Shown piece by piece: positions 5,541 to 63,579 of a stretch of DNA of 64,000 bases; the stretch's first letter is position 1, and every line of letters starts with the position of its first letter. Source of the DNA: Psychrobacter coccoides (lineage in GTDB: Bacteria; Pseudomonadota; Gammaproteobacteria; Pseudomonadales; Moraxellaceae); NCBI RefSeq assembly GCF_017498085.1, contig NZ_JAGBKM010000003.1:24033-88032 (forward strand), read 5' to 3'. The notes under the pieces are model-generated. The model had not been told where the DNA came from. It ran no database searches and was given only the letters and a program-made list of their open reading frames with translations. The translations under genes were made by a program, and so were the position numbers.

Positions 5541-6140
5541 TCATTGCTTACGACCTATATATTGCACGACAGCACTAGGTCCATGGTGTAGCTCACCTTC
5601 TGACATCTCTCTTTGCAGCTCAACCCCCACCACTTCTTCAAGCTCACCAAGCTCTGCTCGCAAAGTTTCTAACGACATAAACTTATCCTTTTGTGACGCA
5701 GGTGGCCCACCAACTCCTTGCATCTCAAGTTGTTGCTCGGTATAAGCCTCCAAAATCATAACTCCGCCTGGTCTCAAAGCAGGTGCGACCTGAGCATGAA
5801 TACGTTGACGTACCGCTGGTGGCATATGTGCTGATATAGAGACGATGCCGTCCCACTGCGCCTCACCCAATGAGTAATCCGCCAAGTCTGATACATGAGT
5901 AATAATCGCAACGCCTTTATCACAGGCCAGCTTTAGTGCTTTATTTAAGCCAACCTCTGAGAGGTCGATGGCCGTTACTTTATAGCCTTGTTCCGCTAAA
6001 AACACTGCATTTCTACCCTCTCCTTCTGCCAGACAAAGCACCTGCCCGCCTGCCGGTATTTGCTCAAACTGTGCTTTTAAAAAATCATTAGGTGCTGTGC
6101 CGTAGACATAATGATCACTACTATAACGCTGGTCCCACAT
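5541..6140 (-). CDS. Class I SAM-dependent methyltransferase (copy 1 of a tandem pair)
   Basis: 199 residues with a compact Rossmann methyltransferase fold. Motif I is LCLAEGEGRNAVFLAEQGY, followed by the acidic AIDLS at the end of strand 2, then DLADY and a W-D-G-I strand 4; TehB/Methyltransf_25-like. Substrate unknown. It is the same length as, and by hand count about 70 percent identical to, the protein at 6910-7509, with no gaps, so the two arose by duplication. ATG at 6140 has AAGGAAA upstream. One end of a MITE-like repeat lies only 14 bases upstream of the ATG, so any promoter must lie in or beyond that element. Confidence 0.85.
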   Translation of the reverse strand: MWDQRYSSDHYVYGTAPNDFLKAQFEQIPAGGQVLCLAEGEGRNAVFLAEQGYKVTAIDLSEVGLNKALKLACDKGVAIITHVSDLADYSLGEAQWDGIVSISAHMPPAVRQRIHAQVAPALRPGGVMILEAYTEQQLEMQGVGGPPASQKDKFMSLETLRAELGELEEVVGVELQREMSEGELHHGPSAVVQYIGRKQ

Positions 6141-6153
6141 TTTATTTTCCTTG

Positions 6154-6314
6154 TATAGTCGATACTAAATAAAATAGATACACTGCATTAACACGCTAGA
6201 CTGGTACAAATTTTTCTTGCGTGCTGTGCCTGCGCAGACAGAGGCTGCAAAACCAACATTAAAGAACTAAGCATCTCAGTCTCGCTGTATTCTTTTTATA
6301 CTGACCTGACTATA
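6154..6314 (-). mobile_element. MITE-like repeat, copy 1 (161 bp)
   Basis: Non-coding element bounded by TATAGTC and its inverse GACTATA. The inverted similarity continues imperfectly for about 30 bp inward. The inside matches the elements at 31244-31403 and 60540-60693 over nearly full length; a 24-bp core at 6223-6246 differs from copy 2 (31312-31335, opposite strand) at two positions. It has no ORF, so it would need a transposase in trans. TA dinucleotides at both borders fit a TA target duplication, which is inference. Confidence 0.75.
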
Positions 6315-6547
6315 TTAATAAATCACGGCCTACTGACTTAGTAAGCCTCATATATAGGTTACGAGGTTACCTATCTATTTTTTTATATTCTAATTAGTCA
6401 TATCACTCATATACTCAAGCGCTAAAATGATAAATCAATTGACGCGCCTGTATATATTCGTTATTATGAATAAATATTAATTAGTCAACACTAGTGCATA
6501 AATCTGTTATCAAGAATATTTATCCATTTACATTTCAGGGGGTCATT

Positions 6548-6909: not shown

Positions 6910-7509
6910 TCATCTCTTACGACCGACAAACTGCACTACAGCGCTAAGTCCTTGATGGCGCTTACCTTCTGATATCAGGCGCTGTTTTTCAATACCAATA
7001 ACTTCTTCTAGCTCAGCCAACTCTATCTGCAGATTTTCTAATGAGCCAAAGCGCTCTTTTTCTGATGCTGGCGGTCCTCCTACAGCTTCCATCGTGAGCT
7101 GTTGCTCAGTATAAGCTTCTGCGATAAACACACCGTTTGGTTTTAAGGCAGGCGCAATCTGAGCGTGGACATGCTGGCGAACCGCTTCAGGCATATGCGC
7201 CCAAATGGAGATAATGCCATCCCATTGCTCTTCTCCAAATTGATAGTCAGCCAAGTCAGCCACTTGCGTGGTGATTGCGACGCCCCTGTCACTGGCTAGC
7301 TTTAAGGCCTTATTTAAGCCCACATCGGACAGATCCATCGCTGTCACCTCATAACCTTGCTCAGCCAAAAACACCGCATTTCTGCCCTCACCTTCTGCCA
7401 AGCACAGCACCCGCCCACCTGTCGGAATATGGACAAATGTTTCTTTTAAAAAGTCGTTAGGATGGGTGCCAAAGACATACTCTGTCTCACTATAACGCTC
7501 ATTCCACAT
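6910..7509 (-). CDS. Class I SAM-dependent methyltransferase (copy 2 of a tandem pair)
   Basis: 199 residues, gap-free paralogue of the protein at 5541-6140. The SAM-binding motif LCLAEGEGRNAVFLAEQGY is identical in both; differences cluster near the N-terminus and in the last 50 residues (for example W in SIWAHMP versus S in SISAHMP), which may alter substrate choice. ATG at 7509 has AAGGAAA upstream, and the 20 bases before the start resemble those of copy 1. The 3' end faces the 3' end of the immunity gene, 32 bp apart. Substrate unknown. Confidence 0.85.
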   Translation of the reverse strand: MWNERYSETEYVFGTHPNDFLKETFVHIPTGGRVLCLAEGEGRNAVFLAEQGYEVTAMDLSDVGLNKALKLASDRGVAITTQVADLADYQFGEEQWDGIISIWAHMPEAVRQHVHAQIAPALKPNGVFIAEAYTEQQLTMEAVGGPPASEKERFGSLENLQIELAELEEVIGIEKQRLISEGKRHQGLSAVVQFVGRKR

Positions 7510-30455: not shown

Positions 30456-31121
30456 ATGTCATTATCAACGGATTACTCTACCGCTACCAACCAAAGCCAA
30501 TCAGCGCAAATTGATCTCACCAGCATTAACTTAGAGCATCTTAATTCTGATGCGCGAGCCGTGTTGAGTTTTTGGTTTGATAAAAACAACGAACAATATT
30601 GGTTTGCACAAAACGACGAGTTTGATAAACAGATAAAAGAGAAGTTTGGCAAGATTTGGGAAGCGGCTAAACAAGGAGAATGTGTCACTTGGCGAACTGT
30701 GGACGCACCAACCGACAGCAACAGCTCAATCACTGCTTTGGCAGGACGTCTGGCAGAAATTATTGTGTTAGATCAGTTTTCACGTAATCTGTGCCGTAAG
30801 CAAGCGGATGCTTTTGCACAAGATGGTATGGCACTGGTATTGGCACAGGAGGCCATCGCACAGCCTCAGTTTGACAACCTACCAACACAGTGGCGAAAAT
30901 TTATGATTATGCCATTTATGCATTCTGAATCAGCGATGATACATGAACGCTATTTGCCGCTGTTTGAGCAGCTAAATGATGAAAATACGCTAGATTTTGA
31001 GCACCGTCATAAAGAAATCATTGATCGATTTGGCCGCTATCCGCATCGTAACGACGTATTGGATCGTGAGTCGACTGAAGAAGAGGAAGCCTTCTTAAAG
31101 CAGCCGAACTCATCATTTTAA
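30456..31121 (+). CDS. DUF924 family protein
   Basis: 221 residues. Family marks are VLSFWFDKNNEQYWFAQNDEFD, a short D-[QE]-F-[ST]-RN block (LDQFSRNLCR) and RKFMIMPFMHSES near the middle, then a HRHKEIIDRFGRYPHRNDVL end. All-helical, tetratricopeptide-like fold; biochemical role unknown. It is divergent from the beta-oxidation operon with about 130 bases between, and ends before a hairpin at 31187. Confidence 0.88.
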   Translation: MSLSTDYSTATNQSQSAQIDLTSINLEHLNSDARAVLSFWFDKNNEQYWFAQNDEFDKQIKEKFGKIWEAAKQGECVTWRTVDAPTDSNSSITALAGRLAEIIVLDQFSRNLCRKQADAFAQDGMALVLAQEAIAQPQFDNLPTQWRKFMIMPFMHSESAMIHERYLPLFEQLNDENTLDFEHRHKEIIDRFGRYPHRNDVLDRESTEEEEAFLKQPNSSF

Positions 31122-31243: not shown

Positions 31244-31403
31244 TATAGTCAGTCTAATATGAAAAATATACAGCGGAACTGGGATGCTTAGTTTTTTAAT
31301 GTTGGTTTTATAGCCTCTGTCGGCGTAGGCACAGCAAGCTAGAAGACTTATACCAATTTCGCATTATTAAATAACCTATCCATTTTATTTAGTATCGACT
31401 ATA
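31244..31403 (+). mobile_element. MITE-like repeat, copy 2 (160 bp)
   Basis: Same element as 6154-6314 in the opposite orientation, bounded by TATAGTC (31244-31250) and GACTATA (31397-31403). Agreement with copy 1 runs almost end to end, including GGTTTTA and AGCCTCTGTC blocks and the ends with GATACTAAATAAAAT. It lies between convergent genes and ends one base from the stop codon of the lipoprotein gene at 31405, so it forms that gene's immediate 3' flank. Confidence 0.75.
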
Positions 31404-31404
31404 G

Positions 31405-32616
31405 CTAATAAGTCACCTCACCGGTGGTAAAAGTAAACGATTGTTTATTTAAGGTTTTATTATCGATTAACACATCAAAGCTGACACGATACTCACTATT
31501 ACTATACAGCCCGCATTGCTGACTTTGATTTGGGGCACGTTGCATGTCACAGCTCTGTAGATCATCGGTGAGCGGCATAATAAATGCTTCGTTTACTGGT
31601 AGCTGATAGTTAGTATGGCCTTTGTATGGGTCATTATCAGCATCAAGCAATTGAACGGGCACATTTATATTACGTTTGACGTCATGGAACTTTACATTAC
31701 TGACTTTAATGCTGGCGGCCAATGGTACATGAATATAGACAGGCTGACCGATAGGATTCATATATAAGTCACGACCAGTGTCTTTGACTGGGTTAGGGTT
31801 TTCATTATAAAGAGCCGTTACCGTACCTTTGACGTCCTGACAAGGGTAAGTAAAAACACCTTTAAAAGTTGCATTATTAATGGCTGAAGTTGCAGCTGCA
31901 TTGTGATTTAAAACATAGCCTTTGTTATAAGCTGCTTTTTTGCCATAAGGTGTATAAGTAACCATGCTCGTCCCTGCCAAACGTAAACTCGGCATCATCA
32001 AAGAGCGCAAATGATAAGGCGCTGCCAGCAAAGATTTGGCCATTGACTCAGCGGCATTTTCAGGCGTTGCAATATCACCTGCAGAGCTAAAGTACCTTGT
32101 ATGACCGATATTCTCAGTGACGCCATACATGGCATTCGGATATGCGGCTTTTGTTATACGGTCCTCAAATATATTACCCGTAAAAAACGGGTTGTTCCTA
32201 CCTGTCCATGCTTTAATGTCTTTAATTTCACCTTCATAGTGCGCATTAAATGCTGTCGGCGTGCTGTTGGCAAATACGTGCTTGATATAGTTAGCGTGTT
32301 TGGTAGCAACCTCTTCAAGCGCTGGATCATCTGACAAACCACTAAGACCACAGCCTTTTCGCGCAAGACTGATGGTATTACTTGCAACCAGTGCGGCGGT
32401 AGCATCATTGCTAGCGATTGCTTTGTCATTTTCAGGCGGCGCATTAGGCTGTATAGGCTCAGACGGTTTTACTGGAGTAGAAGATTTGGAATCATCATCA
32501 CTGTTACTCGAGCTATCACCCCCATCTCCACCTCCGCCACCTCCGCCACAGGCGGTCAAAAACAGTGCGGCAAAAAGGCCAATGGCAAGACTTTTCTTTG
32601 TGGTTTTCAAAGTCAT
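31405..32616 (-). CDS. CAP/SCP-like domain lipoprotein
   Basis: 403 residues. Signal peptide ends in the lipobox LTAC (Cys about 23), followed by a poly-Gly run and a Ser/Asp/Pro linker to about residue 65, typical of a surface lipoprotein tether. Residues about 75-230 look like a CAP (SCP/PR1) domain: LARKGCGLSGL, DPALEEVATKHANYIKH, an H-Y-E-G-E segment, VTENIGHTRYF and AAPYHLRSLMMPSLRLAGTSM. The remaining ~170 residues resemble a beta-sandwich extension without recognised motifs. ATG at 32616 has AGGATAA upstream. Function of bacterial CAP proteins is mostly unknown. Single-gene unit. Confidence 0.75.
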   Translation of the reverse strand: MTLKTTKKSLAIGLFAALFLTACGGGGGGGDGGDSSSNSDDDSKSSTPVKPSEPIQPNAPPENDKAIASNDATAALVASNTISLARKGCGLSGLSDDPALEEVATKHANYIKHVFANSTPTAFNAHYEGEIKDIKAWTGRNNPFFTGNIFEDRITKAAYPNAMYGVTENIGHTRYFSSAGDIATPENAAESMAKSLLAAPYHLRSLMMPSLRLAGTSMVTYTPYGKKAAYNKGYVLNHNAAATSAINNATFKGVFTYPCQDVKGTVTALYNENPNPVKDTGRDLYMNPIGQPVYIHVPLAASIKVSNVKFHDVKRNINVPVQLLDADNDPYKGHTNYQLPVNEAFIMPLTDDLQSCDMQRAPNQSQQCGLYSNSEYRVSFDVLIDNKTLNKQSFTFTTGEVTY

Positions 32617-57420: not shown

Positions 57421-57796
57421 AGTTTTTCCTTATTTAAGCACCTTAAATAGGCATTGAACGATGAGAACAATGCAGTTGTTGCATGACAATCTCTAACTTT
57501 GCATCAAGTTACTGTGATTGATACTTATTGATACTTTGATAAACGCTTTGATGACTACTTTTTAAACCTGTTATTTACACACAGTCACTAAACTCGCTCA
57601 GTCTTACCCTGTACAAGTCACATTTGATATCACATACTTAGGTTTTATTAAAATACCGTGTTGGGTATAGTCGATATTAAATAAAACGGATACGTTATTT
57701 CATAATGACTTGTACTTGCTACGATCAATATTAAATTAATATGTCCTAGAGTTATCTGTATTGACAGTCATCTAAAATCATAAACAGGAGTATCTT
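57421..57796. other. Intergenic region with a MITE fragment
   Basis: 376 bases. It holds the MITE-like fragment at 57666-57715 and presumably the divergent promoters of the transporter gene and the acidic-protein gene. Nothing else is clear. Confidence 0.45.
57666..57715 (+). mobile_element. Truncated MITE-like repeat fragment
   Basis: Begins TATAGTCGATATTAAATAAA and matches the equivalent end of copies 1 and 2 (three changes in the first 28 bases against copy 1). It continues to resemble copy 2 through GGATA-GTTATTT-ATAATG and then breaks off. The other terminus is missing, so this is a solo end. Confidence 0.55.
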
Positions 57797-59634: not shown

Positions 59635-59918
59635 AATATTTCCTTGTTGACCGATCGGATGTATGCCTTATACATTCGAGATAATAAATAAATACTGCCC
59701 CATAGCAGCAGAATAATCAGATGACTTATTATACACGAATCAACTTAAGTAAACAGTCGTAAACTCATGACATTTTACAGCGCCTGCCACCCTCAGCTAA
59801 ATATTTAGTACTGAGTACAGCAGTATTAAACTGAGCCGATTTCGAGTATAATCACATCCTTTCAAAGCTTGCACATTTCTTGCACCCTGCTTGCACATTT
59901 TGGATGGCTGCCACACTT

Positions 59919-60527
59919 ATGAGTAATACCCCAATAATCACATCAGAAACCACACCAAATCACCAACAAAGTATCGAATCTTATCGTCAACTGATCGCAT
60001 CGACTGGCGAGAGTTTATTGCGTCCAGGCCTCGTAGATACGCCTATGCGGGCGGCAAAAGCCTTTGGGCATCTGACTCAAGGCTATCAGCAAAACCTAGA
60101 TGAAGTCGTCAATGACGCCGTATTTCCATCGACCAATCGTGAGCTGGTCTTGGTACAAAACATTGAATTTTATTCATTATGCGAACATCATATGCTGCCT
60201 TTTCATGGCATTGCCCATATTGGCTATCTGCCTGATGGGCAGGTGCTCGGCTTATCTAAGTTTGCCCGTATCGTCGATATGTTTGCTCGCCGCTTACAGA
60301 TTCAAGAAAACCTAAGTGAGCAAGTTGCCCAAGCCATTATGGACGTCACGGGCTGCCGCGGTGTGGCCGTGGTCATGGATGCTTCGCACATGTGTATGAT
60401 GATGCGTGGCGTCAGCAAACAGCACTCTACCACTCGTAGCACAGCGATGCTTGGTGAGTATATGCATGACAATCAGGCACGCAATGAGTTCTTAAATGCT
60501 GTACCTAAGCGCCAGCCAGCGTTTTAA
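59919..60527 (+). CDS. folE: GTP cyclohydrolase I
   Basis: 202 residues from ATG 59919; a longer frame to 59880 would add only 13 residues, and no start has a strong ribosome site. Zinc and active-site motifs [21 protein letters not shown] (short: LCEHHMLPF) and [20 protein letters not shown] (short: [10 protein letters not shown]). It makes dihydroneopterin triphosphate for folate. Divergent from fabI. A MITE-like repeat begins 12 bp after its stop. Confidence 0.95.
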
Positions 60528-60539
60528 TCCCTGTCTACT

Positions 60540-60693
60540 TATAGTCGATGCACTTTAAAAAGAACATAGCGCTACTGGGGTGCTTTCTGTTCAAAATATA
60601 GGTTGCGCAGCCTCTAGGGAGAGCAGCACGCAAGTAAAATTTATACCAGTAGCGCGTTTAAATCCATAACAGTTTTACATTCAGCTGACTATA
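60540..60693 (-). mobile_element. MITE-like repeat, copy 3 (154 bp)
   Basis: Bounded by TATAGTC (60540-60546) and GACTATA (60687-60693). The interior keeps AGCCTCT, GCACGCAAG and TATACCAGT of the family, but the middle is more diverged than in copies 1 and 2. It lies between the convergent folE and yejF genes. Confidence 0.7.
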
Positions 60694-60791: not shown

Positions 60792-62504
60792 CTAGGTGAC
60801 ACTGGCCTGCAATAGCTGCTTGGCATACGGATGCTCTGGGTGGTCAAAAACCTCTTCAGTACGACCATACTCAATACATCTGCCTTCTTTTAGCACCATG
60901 ATGTGCTGGCACAGGGCACGCACCACTTTTAGATCATGACTGATAAACACATAACTGAGCTGTAGTTTTGCTTGAATCTCTCGTAGCAAACTGACCACAG
61001 TAACCTGTGTGCTACTATCAAGTGCAGAAGTTGGCTCATCTAATATCAATAGGCTTGGCTGCATGATTAGCGCACGGGCAAGCGCCACCCGCTGACGCTG
61101 ACCGCCTGATAGCTCATGCGGATAGCGCTGGGCAAACTCACTCGGCAGATGCACTGTCGCTAAGCTCTCTATGACAGCGCTTTGACGTGTTTTTTTATCG
61201 ACACCTTGAACCAACAGTCCTTCTTCGATGATTTGCATCACAGTCATGCGTGGGTTGATACTGGCAAAGGGGTCTTGAAACACCATTTGGATTTGTGAGC
61301 GAAATTGGCGGCGTTCTTTGTTGGACAGTGACGAGATGTCTTGACCGTTGACGATCACCTGACCATTGACACGAGCTTGATTGCTCAGCAGCTGAGTTAG
61401 CGCGAGGGCGATGGTGGTTTTGCCTGAGCCGGACTCACCCACGATGCCGAGCGCCTGTCCTTTTTGTAGCTGCATGTCGACATGACTTACGGCATCAAAC
61501 CAACGTTTGGTAGCGCCAAAGAGGCTTTTTTCTATCGGAAACTGCACTTGTAAATGACTGACTTGCAATACGGTCGGTTGCTGACTTTGGTCATCCCCCC
61601 ATAAATCTAGCGCTTGCCCAAAGTCTTGGGCTATGAGCGAGCGGGTATAGTCGGCTTTGGGTTGACTGAATACCGCTGCGGTTTGCCCCTGCTCTATCGT
61701 TTGTCCTTGACGCATGACGATGACTTCATCACTGTAGCGCCTAACCAAATTAAGATCATGGCTGATGAGTATCATCGCCATATTATGCTGACGCTTAAGG
61801 TTATTAAGTAGCTCAAGGATTTCATGCTGCAAGGTGACATCCAGTGCAGTCGTTGGCTCATCAGCGATGAGGATATCCGGCTGCTGCGCCAATGCCATGG
61901 CAATCATCACCCGCTGACGTTGTCCGCCTGACAGCTCATGTGGATAGCGATTTAGTTTATCAGCCGGATCAGTGATATTGACATCATTCAGTAAAGCGAG
62001 GCTCTTTTCATGCCAGTGCTTTTTGGCGACGCCGCTCAAATGCAAAGATTCGGCGATTTGCTTAGCGACGGTGTGGAGTGGATTGAGTGCCGTCATCGGT
62101 TCCTGAAACACCATACCGATGCGCTGCCCACGGATAGTGCGTAGCGATGCTTCACGCTGTTTATCCCTGATGGTCGATTGAGTAGATTGGGTGATAGGCA
62201 AGTGGATCATGCCAGCAGTTTCTGCGAGCTCTACTTCTCCTGTCACAGTCAAACTATCAGGCAACAGACCCAGTAACGCTAGGCTAGCAATCGATTTGCC
62301 AGAGCCTGACTCGCCGACGATGGCCAGTGTCTGAGCCTGTCTGAGCGTATACGATAACTCATCCACTAAGGTGACCCCTGTGGCAGTGACGATTTTTAGC
62401 TTATTTACCACCAGCATGGGTTGGTTGTGGCCACTACAAGCATGGTTATCTGTCCTGCTGGGAGCAACATCGATCAGGGTATTGTGTACGGTCGTTATGG
62501 TCAT
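60792..62504 (-). CDS. yejF: Oligopeptide/microcin C ABC transporter, ATP-binding protein YejF
   Basis: 570 residues from ATG 62504, which overlaps the yejE stop region (TAATATG). Two fused ATPase domains: Walker A GESGSGKSIA and signature LSGGQRQRV in the first, GESGSGKTTI and LSGGQRQRV in the second, each with a DEPT Walker B. It powers import of peptides through YejBE, a route also used by microcin C. The A-rich tail before the second domain is a linker. Nothing unusual in sequence. Confidence 0.92.
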   Translation of the reverse strand: MTITTVHNTLIDVAPSRTDNHACSGHNQPMLVVNKLKIVTATGVTLVDELSYTLRQAQTLAIVGESGSGKSIASLALLGLLPDSLTVTGEVELAETAGMIHLPITQSTQSTIRDKQREASLRTIRGQRIGMVFQEPMTALNPLHTVAKQIAESLHLSGVAKKHWHEKSLALLNDVNITDPADKLNRYPHELSGGQRQRVMIAMALAQQPDILIADEPTTALDVTLQHEILELLNNLKRQHNMAMILISHDLNLVRRYSDEVIVMRQGQTIEQGQTAAVFSQPKADYTRSLIAQDFGQALDLWGDDQSQQPTVLQVSHLQVQFPIEKSLFGATKRWFDAVSHVDMQLQKGQALGIVGESGSGKTTIALALTQLLSNQARVNGQVIVNGQDISSLSNKERRQFRSQIQMVFQDPFASINPRMTVMQIIEEGLLVQGVDKKTRQSAVIESLATVHLPSEFAQRYPHELSGGQRQRVALARALIMQPSLLILDEPTSALDSSTQVTVVSLLREIQAKLQLSYVFISHDLKVVRALCQHIMVLKEGRCIEYGRTEEVFDHPEHPYAKQLLQASVT

Positions 62505-62505
62505 A

Positions 62506-63579
62506 TTAAGAACGCCTCGGATCAAAGGCATCACGCAGCGCTTCGCCAACAAAAATAAGTAGAGACAAAATCAAAGTCAAGCTGAAAAACCCTGACAGCG
62601 CTAACCAGGGGGCATCGAGATTATTTTTGCCTTGTACCATCAACTCGCCCAGCGATGGTGAGCCAGGCGGTAGGCCATACCCTAAAAAGTCTAGCGCCGT
62701 TAAGGCGATGATATTGGCAGTCAAAATAAACGGTAGCTGCGATAAGCTAGACGCTAAAGCATTGGGCAGAATATGCCTGAGCATAATGCGTCGGTCTGAG
62801 ACCCCAAGGTTGCGAGCGGCTCGCACATAATCAAAGTTACGGGCCCGTAAAAACTCCGCCCGTACCAAACCAACCAAGCCCATCCAACCAAACAACAGCA
62901 TCATGGCAAACAACACAAAAACACTGGGACTAAACAAGCTGACTAAGATAATAATCATAAACAGCTGCGGCATACCGCCCCACACTTCCATAAAGCGCTG
63001 CCCCGCCAGATCCACCCAGCCTCCATAATAGCCTTGTACTGCTCCCACAATGATGCCAATCATGGCGCCTGCTAGCGTCAAGGCGATACCAAACAGTAGC
63101 GATATTCGCATGCCGTACAGTATTCGGGCCAGTACATCACGACCCAGATCATCTGTTCCCAGCCAGTTTTGACTATTGGGCGCTGCCGGATAAGGGATAC
63201 CCAACTCTACGTTTGGGGTCTGATCAGCAAAGGGAATCAGCGGCATGACATAAAAACCCTGCTCATTAATTAAACGTTGCACGGCAGGATCTTTGTAATT
63301 GGTTTCAGTCTCAAACACCCCGCCAAAAGTGGTTTCGGGATAGGCTTTTAGCACAGGAAAATAGTAATCGCCTTGATACTGTACCAACAGCGGCTTGTCA
63401 TTGGCAATCACGTTGGCTGCCATACAAATGACAAATATCAGGACAAAAACAACCAGTGATATAACCCCAAGACGATTGCGACGAAAGCGGCTTAGGCGTG
63501 CCTGCCAAATAGGGTTTAGGCGACGTTTTTTTTCTAGTGAAACAGAAGGTGCGGTTGAAGGTAATGGGTGACTTGACAT
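62506..63579 (-). CDS. yejE: ABC transporter permease YejE
   Basis: 357 residues. N-terminal cytoplasmic and single membrane segment (about 37-55), a periplasmic domain with the YPAAPNSQNWLGTDDLGRDV block near 135, then five membrane segments with the EAA-like loop AARNLGVSDRRIMLRHILPN. The 3' end runs into yejF. GAGGGG precedes the ATG, within the end of yejB. Confidence 0.92.
   Translation of the reverse strand: MSSHPLPSTAPSVSLEKKRRLNPIWQARLSRFRRNRLGVISLVVFVLIFVICMAANVIANDKPLLVQYQGDYYFPVLKAYPETTFGGVFETETNYKDPAVQRLINEQGFYVMPLIPFADQTPNVELGIPYPAAPNSQNWLGTDDLGRDVLARILYGMRISLLFGIALTLAGAMIGIIVGAVQGYYGGWVDLAGQRFMEVWGGMPQLFMIIILVSLFSPSVFVLFAMMLLFGWMGLVGLVRAEFLRARNFDYVRAARNLGVSDRRIMLRHILPNALASSLSQLPFILTANIIALTALDFLGYGLPPGSPSLGELMVQGKNNLDAPWLALSGFFSLTLILSLLIFVGEALRDAFDPRRS

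Follow-up and report, generated by a model that had tools for sequence, protein, structure and literature searches.

A small non-coding mobile element family common in Psychrobacter genomes, and a candidate IS630-type helper

Three similar intergenic repeats in a 64,000-nucleotide stretch of a Psychrobacter coccoides contig (the window) raise a simple question: are they mobile elements, or regulatory or RNA elements held in place by selection? A sequence-only reading had proposed a non-autonomous transposable element with a TA target, and had named beforehand three checks: further copies in the genome, empty sites in relatives, and a transposase gene with like ends. We conclude that the three repeats are small non-coding mobile elements of a family common in Psychrobacter genomes.

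The repeats lie at 6154-6314 (copy 1, plus strand, 161 bp), 31244-31403 (copy 2, minus strand, 160 bp) and 60540-60693 (copy 3, minus strand, 154 bp), and their inverted TATAGTC/GACTATA ends can be read directly in the sequence. The imperfect inverted likeness behind these ends, first put at about 30 bp, measures about 28 bp; the element also has an inner palindrome and, over about 33 nt, a conserved core. In copy 1, the left terminal repeat (6154-6181, plus strand) matches the 28-base family pattern with 0 mismatches, the imperfect right repeat (6287-6314, minus strand) folds against the left end, and the core occupies 6216-6248 (plus strand), of which 6222-6248 (C23:30254-30280) matches the core pattern with 2 mismatches and the rest is an extension by eye. 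The interiors are alike on either strand, as had been described: copy 1, aligned in turn with the opposite strands of the other two, agrees with copy 2 in 78% of 161 columns and with copy 3 in 70% of 130. Copies 1 and 2 belong to a long subtype (~161 bp) with an additional segment in the right arm; a short subtype (~145 bp) retains the inner palindrome. The elements contain no ORF, and a length of at most 161 bp leaves at most 53 codons. A further piece at 57666-57707 (plus strand), recognized by alignment and the left-end pattern, is truncated and comprises a left end only.

Additional copies are plentiful in the rest of the genome. With copy 1 as the query we obtained at least 42 genome matches at E ≤ 0.001 (40 of the 111 first-look candidates were scored). 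The 28-base left-end pattern, allowing up to 3 mismatches, matches the genome 41 times and its reversed control 0 times, and is therefore far above chance; likewise, a 27-mer from the core, also with up to 3 mismatches, yields 26 matches against 0 for its control. Two of the loci with core matches (L069 and L070) were outside the earlier copy list, and both also fit the family profile. A profile search of 54 stretches gave, after merging, at least 45 near-full-length copies in the 3.05-Mb genome; this is a lower bound, with a further copy found at L074:29-177 and truncated copies in several stretches. Because their sisters elsewhere in the genome are 0.99 and 0.94 identical, copies 1 and 2 look like recent insertions; the 99% sister of copy 1 lies at G000:C56:65960-66120.

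We then compared the insertion sites with the corresponding loci of relatives. At site 2, two relatives' loci (L174 and L181) show CTTAACTAA in ungapped alignment over the joint, in the place of CT-element-GCTAA in the window; in two others (L173 and L177) a gap of 3 nt adjoins the joint, and further gaps occur in the remaining relatives. At site 1, genome G022 reads TTTTCCTTATTAATT, and joining the window flanks would give TTTTCCTTGTATTAAT (by eye). G022 also lacks a copy at site 3. Empty sites with a single TA at the joint are thus found at site 2 and, by eye, at site 1, as the proposed TA target predicts. A nested copy in L015 also sits at a TA: it interrupts the terminal repeat of another copy, and once it is excised together with one TA, the host repeat is whole again except for a single mismatch. 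The neighboring bases show a dyad-like preference: of 78 distinct flanks, 73% have A or C just ahead of the element and 68% have G or T just behind it.

For each site we fetched 30 loci, one of them from the P. coccoides genome itself, leaving 29 relatives. A family copy is present at or near the site in 1 of 29 relatives for site 1 (G080, L133), 2 of 29 for site 2 (G022, L160; G043, L187) and 1 of 29 for site 3 (G052, L200), counts in which some of the fetched loci may not span the site. Conservation of position in all relatives, which would have spoken against mobility, was therefore not what we observed, and a fixed-position regulatory element is disfavored because most relatives' loci have no copy at these sites. 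The copy in G022 at site 2 is the same, identical element, and the adjoining window flank (31410-32100) matches G022 at 99% identity over 680 bp, against 81-83% for the window flanks at sites 1 and 3; this flank identity suggests a recent exchange of the site 2 region with G022. One might ask whether the family as a whole has spread mainly in this manner, by recombination or horizontal exchange of flanking DNA without transposition. Near-identical copies sit in unrelated flanks with TA joints, however, which refutes flank exchange as the main mode and leaves that account scarcely credible.

The copies in G080, G043 and G052 are different in kind. Their identity to the window copy at the same site, 56-67%, is no higher than that of typical pairs of copies (medians 0.65-0.70); they belong to different subfamilies than the window copies; and in G043 (site 2) and G052 (site 3) the core is oriented opposite to that of the window copy. 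We read them as elements that inserted independently into the same short intergenic regions. Because each window site has such a divergent copy in one relative, hot spots, or old insertions that were once shared and later replaced, could also account for them. At site 1 orthology is blurred, since the site lies between two paralogous genes.

To describe where the elements reside, we classified 58 copies with enough flank: 3 from the window, 8 from elsewhere in the genome and 47 from relatives, the last being top-scoring or exact-core matches rather than a random sample. All but one (57 of 58) are intergenic and one overlaps an ORF; 161-bp intervals placed at random in the window are intergenic in 7%. 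By simple ORF calls, 34 of the 57 intergenic copies lie between tandem, 14 between convergent and 9 between divergent genes, a mixture that led us to reject a terminator-specific element. Two of the window copies had been placed between convergent genes, and ORF calls agree for copies 2 and 3. Copy 2 separates a DUF924 gene (30456-31121, plus strand) from a gene without a Pfam match (31405-32616, minus strand) whose stop is 1 bp from the element; copy 3 separates a GTP cyclohydrolase I gene (59880-60527, plus strand) from an ABC transporter gene (60792-62552, minus strand), these assignments coming from ORF calls and domain searches. Copy 1 lies between divergent genes, upstream of a methyltransferase-domain gene (5541-6140, minus strand; ORF call and domain search) whose start codon is 13 bp away, and insertions so placed offer a route for strains to come to differ in their upstream regions. 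A second methyltransferase-domain gene (6910-7509) lies on the other side of copy 1, on the same strand as the first, and the two are 71% identical in DNA. No sigma-70-like site was found in 6050-6450, where shuffled sequences average 1.3, and an outward promoter at copy 1 was therefore rejected.

If the elements do not encode a transposase, what could move them? The P. coccoides genome contains 18 matches to DDE_3, the domain of IS630-type transposases. Many of these IS630 copies sit at contig ends (C5, C6, C18, C25, C35 and others), and for this reason the assembly probably breaks at them. The IS copies with readable ends are 912 and 920 bp long and run from TATAGT to ACTATA, so that a resident transposase gene with ends like those of the element, the third check, was indeed found. 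Each of these IS has two overlapping frames that could be joined by a frameshift at an A8 run. In NCBIfam searches both second frames score as IS630 above the cut-off; the first frames score below the cut-off throughout, one against IS630 and IS481 and the other against IS481 only. Past the shared motif, 75 element ends drawn from the 45 copies of this genome agree with ten IS ends at a mean of 15.4 of 23 positions, compared with 9.5 for shuffled ends. The likeness fades by about position 35 (by eye), and the core is therefore not derived from the IS.

Together, these observations show the features of a MITE: short length, no coding capacity, terminal inverted repeats, TA target duplication and empty sites. 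The many copies, the TA empty sites and the IS630 elements with like ends support the earlier proposal of a non-autonomous transposable element, and judging from sequence the element is probably a non-autonomous MITE moved in trans by the IS630 transposase. The transposase would bind the element ends in trans, excise the element and insert it at a TA with duplication of that TA, and copies would persist mainly between genes. A precedent is RUP of pneumococcus, a 107-bp intergenic element with a 9-bp terminal repeat, TA duplication and about 108-110 copies, for which IS630-Spn1 has been put forward as the mobilizing element (PMC2229807, PMC3049150). As described in the cited passages, RUP resembles the Psychrobacter element in being small and intergenic, in duplicating TA and in having ends that resemble a resident IS630-family element; it differs in its host, in the length of its terminal repeat (9 bp against ~28 bp) and in that the Psychrobacter element has a conserved core and a co-varying palindrome, a separation made on the published description of RUP. 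By analogy with these accounts, we infer that the element may work as RUP does with IS630-Spn1. A multi-copy MITE family mobilized by an IS630-type transposase in the manner of RUP is the best explanation of the data, and we regard it as very likely.

The finding gives Psychrobacter a mobile repeat that is very common in the genus. Because the P. coccoides genome also contains a candidate helper IS, mobilization of a bacterial MITE becomes directly testable here.

Two other known families invite comparison. Correia elements (CREE/NEMIS) of Neisseria have TATAGT ends, terminal repeats of 24-26 bp, size classes of about 107 and 155 bp and a long hairpin (PMC5039591, PMC10969869, PMC2229807), and the Psychrobacter family could be imagined as a member, derived from or held in common with Neisseria. 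The two share their size class, TATAGT ends, TA, intergenic placement and a long hairpin, and a core inverted relative to its terminal repeats, as reported for Correia elements in the cited passages, occurs in the Psychrobacter family at L023:301-446. Past TATAGT, however, the repeat sequences diverge: compared with four published Correia repeats, element ends agree on average at 10.0 of 22 positions, and the best agreement, 13 of 22, equals the maximum among random 22-mers from the window (mean 7.0, 95th percentile 10, maximum 13). The passages cited name no helper IS for Correia elements, and the Psychrobacter family, as sampled across its taxonomic family, occurs almost exclusively in a single genus. 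We thus reject Correia membership, judged on the terminal repeats, as highly improbable. MITEAba12 of Acinetobacter likewise pairs a MITE with a resident helper IS within the Moraxellaceae; as described, it is 111-114 bp long, with 16-bp ends like those of ISAba12 (GGCTTTGTTGCA...) and a 9-bp duplication (PMC6382973). Those GGCTTTGTTGCA ends and the 9-bp duplication, set against TATAGTC ends and TA here, exclude membership. A search of open-licence literature found no description of the Psychrobacter family. Our verdict, from comparison with RUP by description and with Correia elements by terminal repeats, is that the family is new and of a kind already known.

The family is widespread within its genus. 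Matches occur in 93 of 100 same-genus genomes and are missing from 7, and 35 of these genomes have at least 31 matches. A search across the taxonomic family matched 64 of 199 genomes, 63 of them from the same genus and one (G138, with a single candidate match) from another. Among named genomes, the exact 28-base core occurs in 19 stretches, all from Psychrobacter. Copy 1 had no match in a plasmid and phage search (a set from which records very near its own genome may be missing), and the exact core had none in viral contigs; we accordingly rejected a plasmid or phage origin.

Transposase matches are found in 90 of the 100 same-genus genomes, and 55 have a close IS (E ≤ 1e-80). The element is present in all 55 genomes with a close IS and absent from 7 of the 45 others (Fisher p 0.003, uncorrected for relatedness). 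By contrast, the number of copies does not track the presence of a close IS, which counts against a simple helper model: a close IS is found in 27 of 45 copy-rich genomes (at least 15 copies) versus 28 of 55 copy-poor genomes (p 0.42), and the correlation with copy number is slight (Spearman 0.12, p 0.22). Thirteen copy-rich genomes have no close IS (E above about 1e-40). Among the eight of these examined for DDE_3, six have none, G036 has one match below the cut-off and G022 has 21. The matches in G022 (L249-L270) represent a different IS630-type element in many copies; L249, the one examined, has TACCAAACCCAA ends.

We also asked how fresh the copies are in such genomes. In G042 and in G072, the median identity among ten top-scoring copies is 0.78, a value that fits relics. 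The ten top-scoring copies of G096 are 0.96-1.00 identical, and show past bursts; this genome has three fragments only of this IS type, two of them still with TATAGT repeat ends. The expectation that a helper would be found wherever copies are numerous or fresh thus failed, both in the copy-rich genomes without DDE_3 and in G096 with its fragments. The helper-poor, copy-rich genomes would be explained if the helper was lost once a burst was over, or if transposase came from elsewhere, and they form a natural series for studying bursts of such elements and their later persistence.

Two unusual features of the family, its conserved core and the covariation within its inner palindrome, go beyond the earlier description, and both deserve testing. 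An alignment of 22 short-subtype copies, scored on the structure of one member, has a covariation score of 0.213, compared with 0.131 in shuffles (0 of 500 reach it) and at most 0.082 when the structure is slid. In the inner 16-pair helix, 11 pairs have changed on both sides. Weaker measures are less distinctive: the count of both-side-changed pairs is reached by 67 of 500 shuffles and that of further pair types by 20 of 500. Of 114 copies, 89 allowed both arms to be located; these yield 74 distinct arm pairs. Arms pair better with their own partner than when crossed (mean 13.0 versus 9.6; own above crossed in 58 of 74; 0 of 5000 permutations), and 15 dissimilar representatives behave similarly (13.7 versus 9.1 permuted). 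Because both the covariation score and the own-versus-crossed pairing exceed shuffles and permutations, the coupling between arms looks real.

The inner palindrome would let a strand fold into a long hairpin, and its arms may change together through selection for an RNA hairpin or through arm-to-arm copying during replication. Template switching corrects imperfect palindromes, and fits the arm coupling as well as RNA selection does. Could the family instead be a dispersed structured-RNA or regulatory element under selection, such as a target of RNase III or a bidirectional terminator, whose mobility is incidental or past? The conserved core, the coupled arms and the family copy near each window site in one relative are in its favor, as is the folding of some copies far above shuffles (z -4.0, -7.6 and -6.4). 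Folding strength varies, with z -2.4 for another copy and -3.2 for copy 1. Against this reading, others of the six copies folded besides copy 1 are ordinary (z -0.5 and -0.4), positions are mostly unshared, gene contexts are mixed, 7 of 100 genus genomes do without the element, and the count of both-side-changed pairs is itself ordinary. Further, Rfam gave no match at gathering score within the window, and we rejected a known Rfam RNA; L012 has two sub-threshold matches. Selection of this kind as the main explanation therefore seems to us quite unlikely, and the IS630-mobilized MITE remains our preferred reading.

A somewhat less remote reading, unlikely in our estimation, combines mobility with function: the ~33-nt core, carried on a hairpin held by compensatory change, could be a functional payload that makes the family a mobile RNA regulator and not a parasite only, with the RNA perhaps read from the strand opposite copy 1. 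A weaker version would be that copying between the arms of imperfect palindromes visibly homogenizes a bacterial MITE family. In copy-1 orientation, the inner arms of the 56 of 74 distinct arm pairs that pass a pairing threshold contain 65 A-C mismatches against 20 G-U pairs, which may point to a hairpin RNA made from that opposite strand. By column, a hand count gives 8 leaning one way, 2 the other and 5 tied, and the terminal repeats show no asymmetry (G-U 187, A-C 205). We rejected the asymmetry as proof of RNA selection, given how few columns carry it, and keep it as a hint.

Some copies depart from the common plan. L057 has an apparent internal deletion near 410-477, with about 67 bp left and both ends retained. 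In L021, L022, L024 and L032 the left side of the element adjoins a repeated end, ...TTTTTAAAATGA(G/A)GACACGCCCTA, at which the last three are truncated; it is probably that of another IS, lying in or next to the element.
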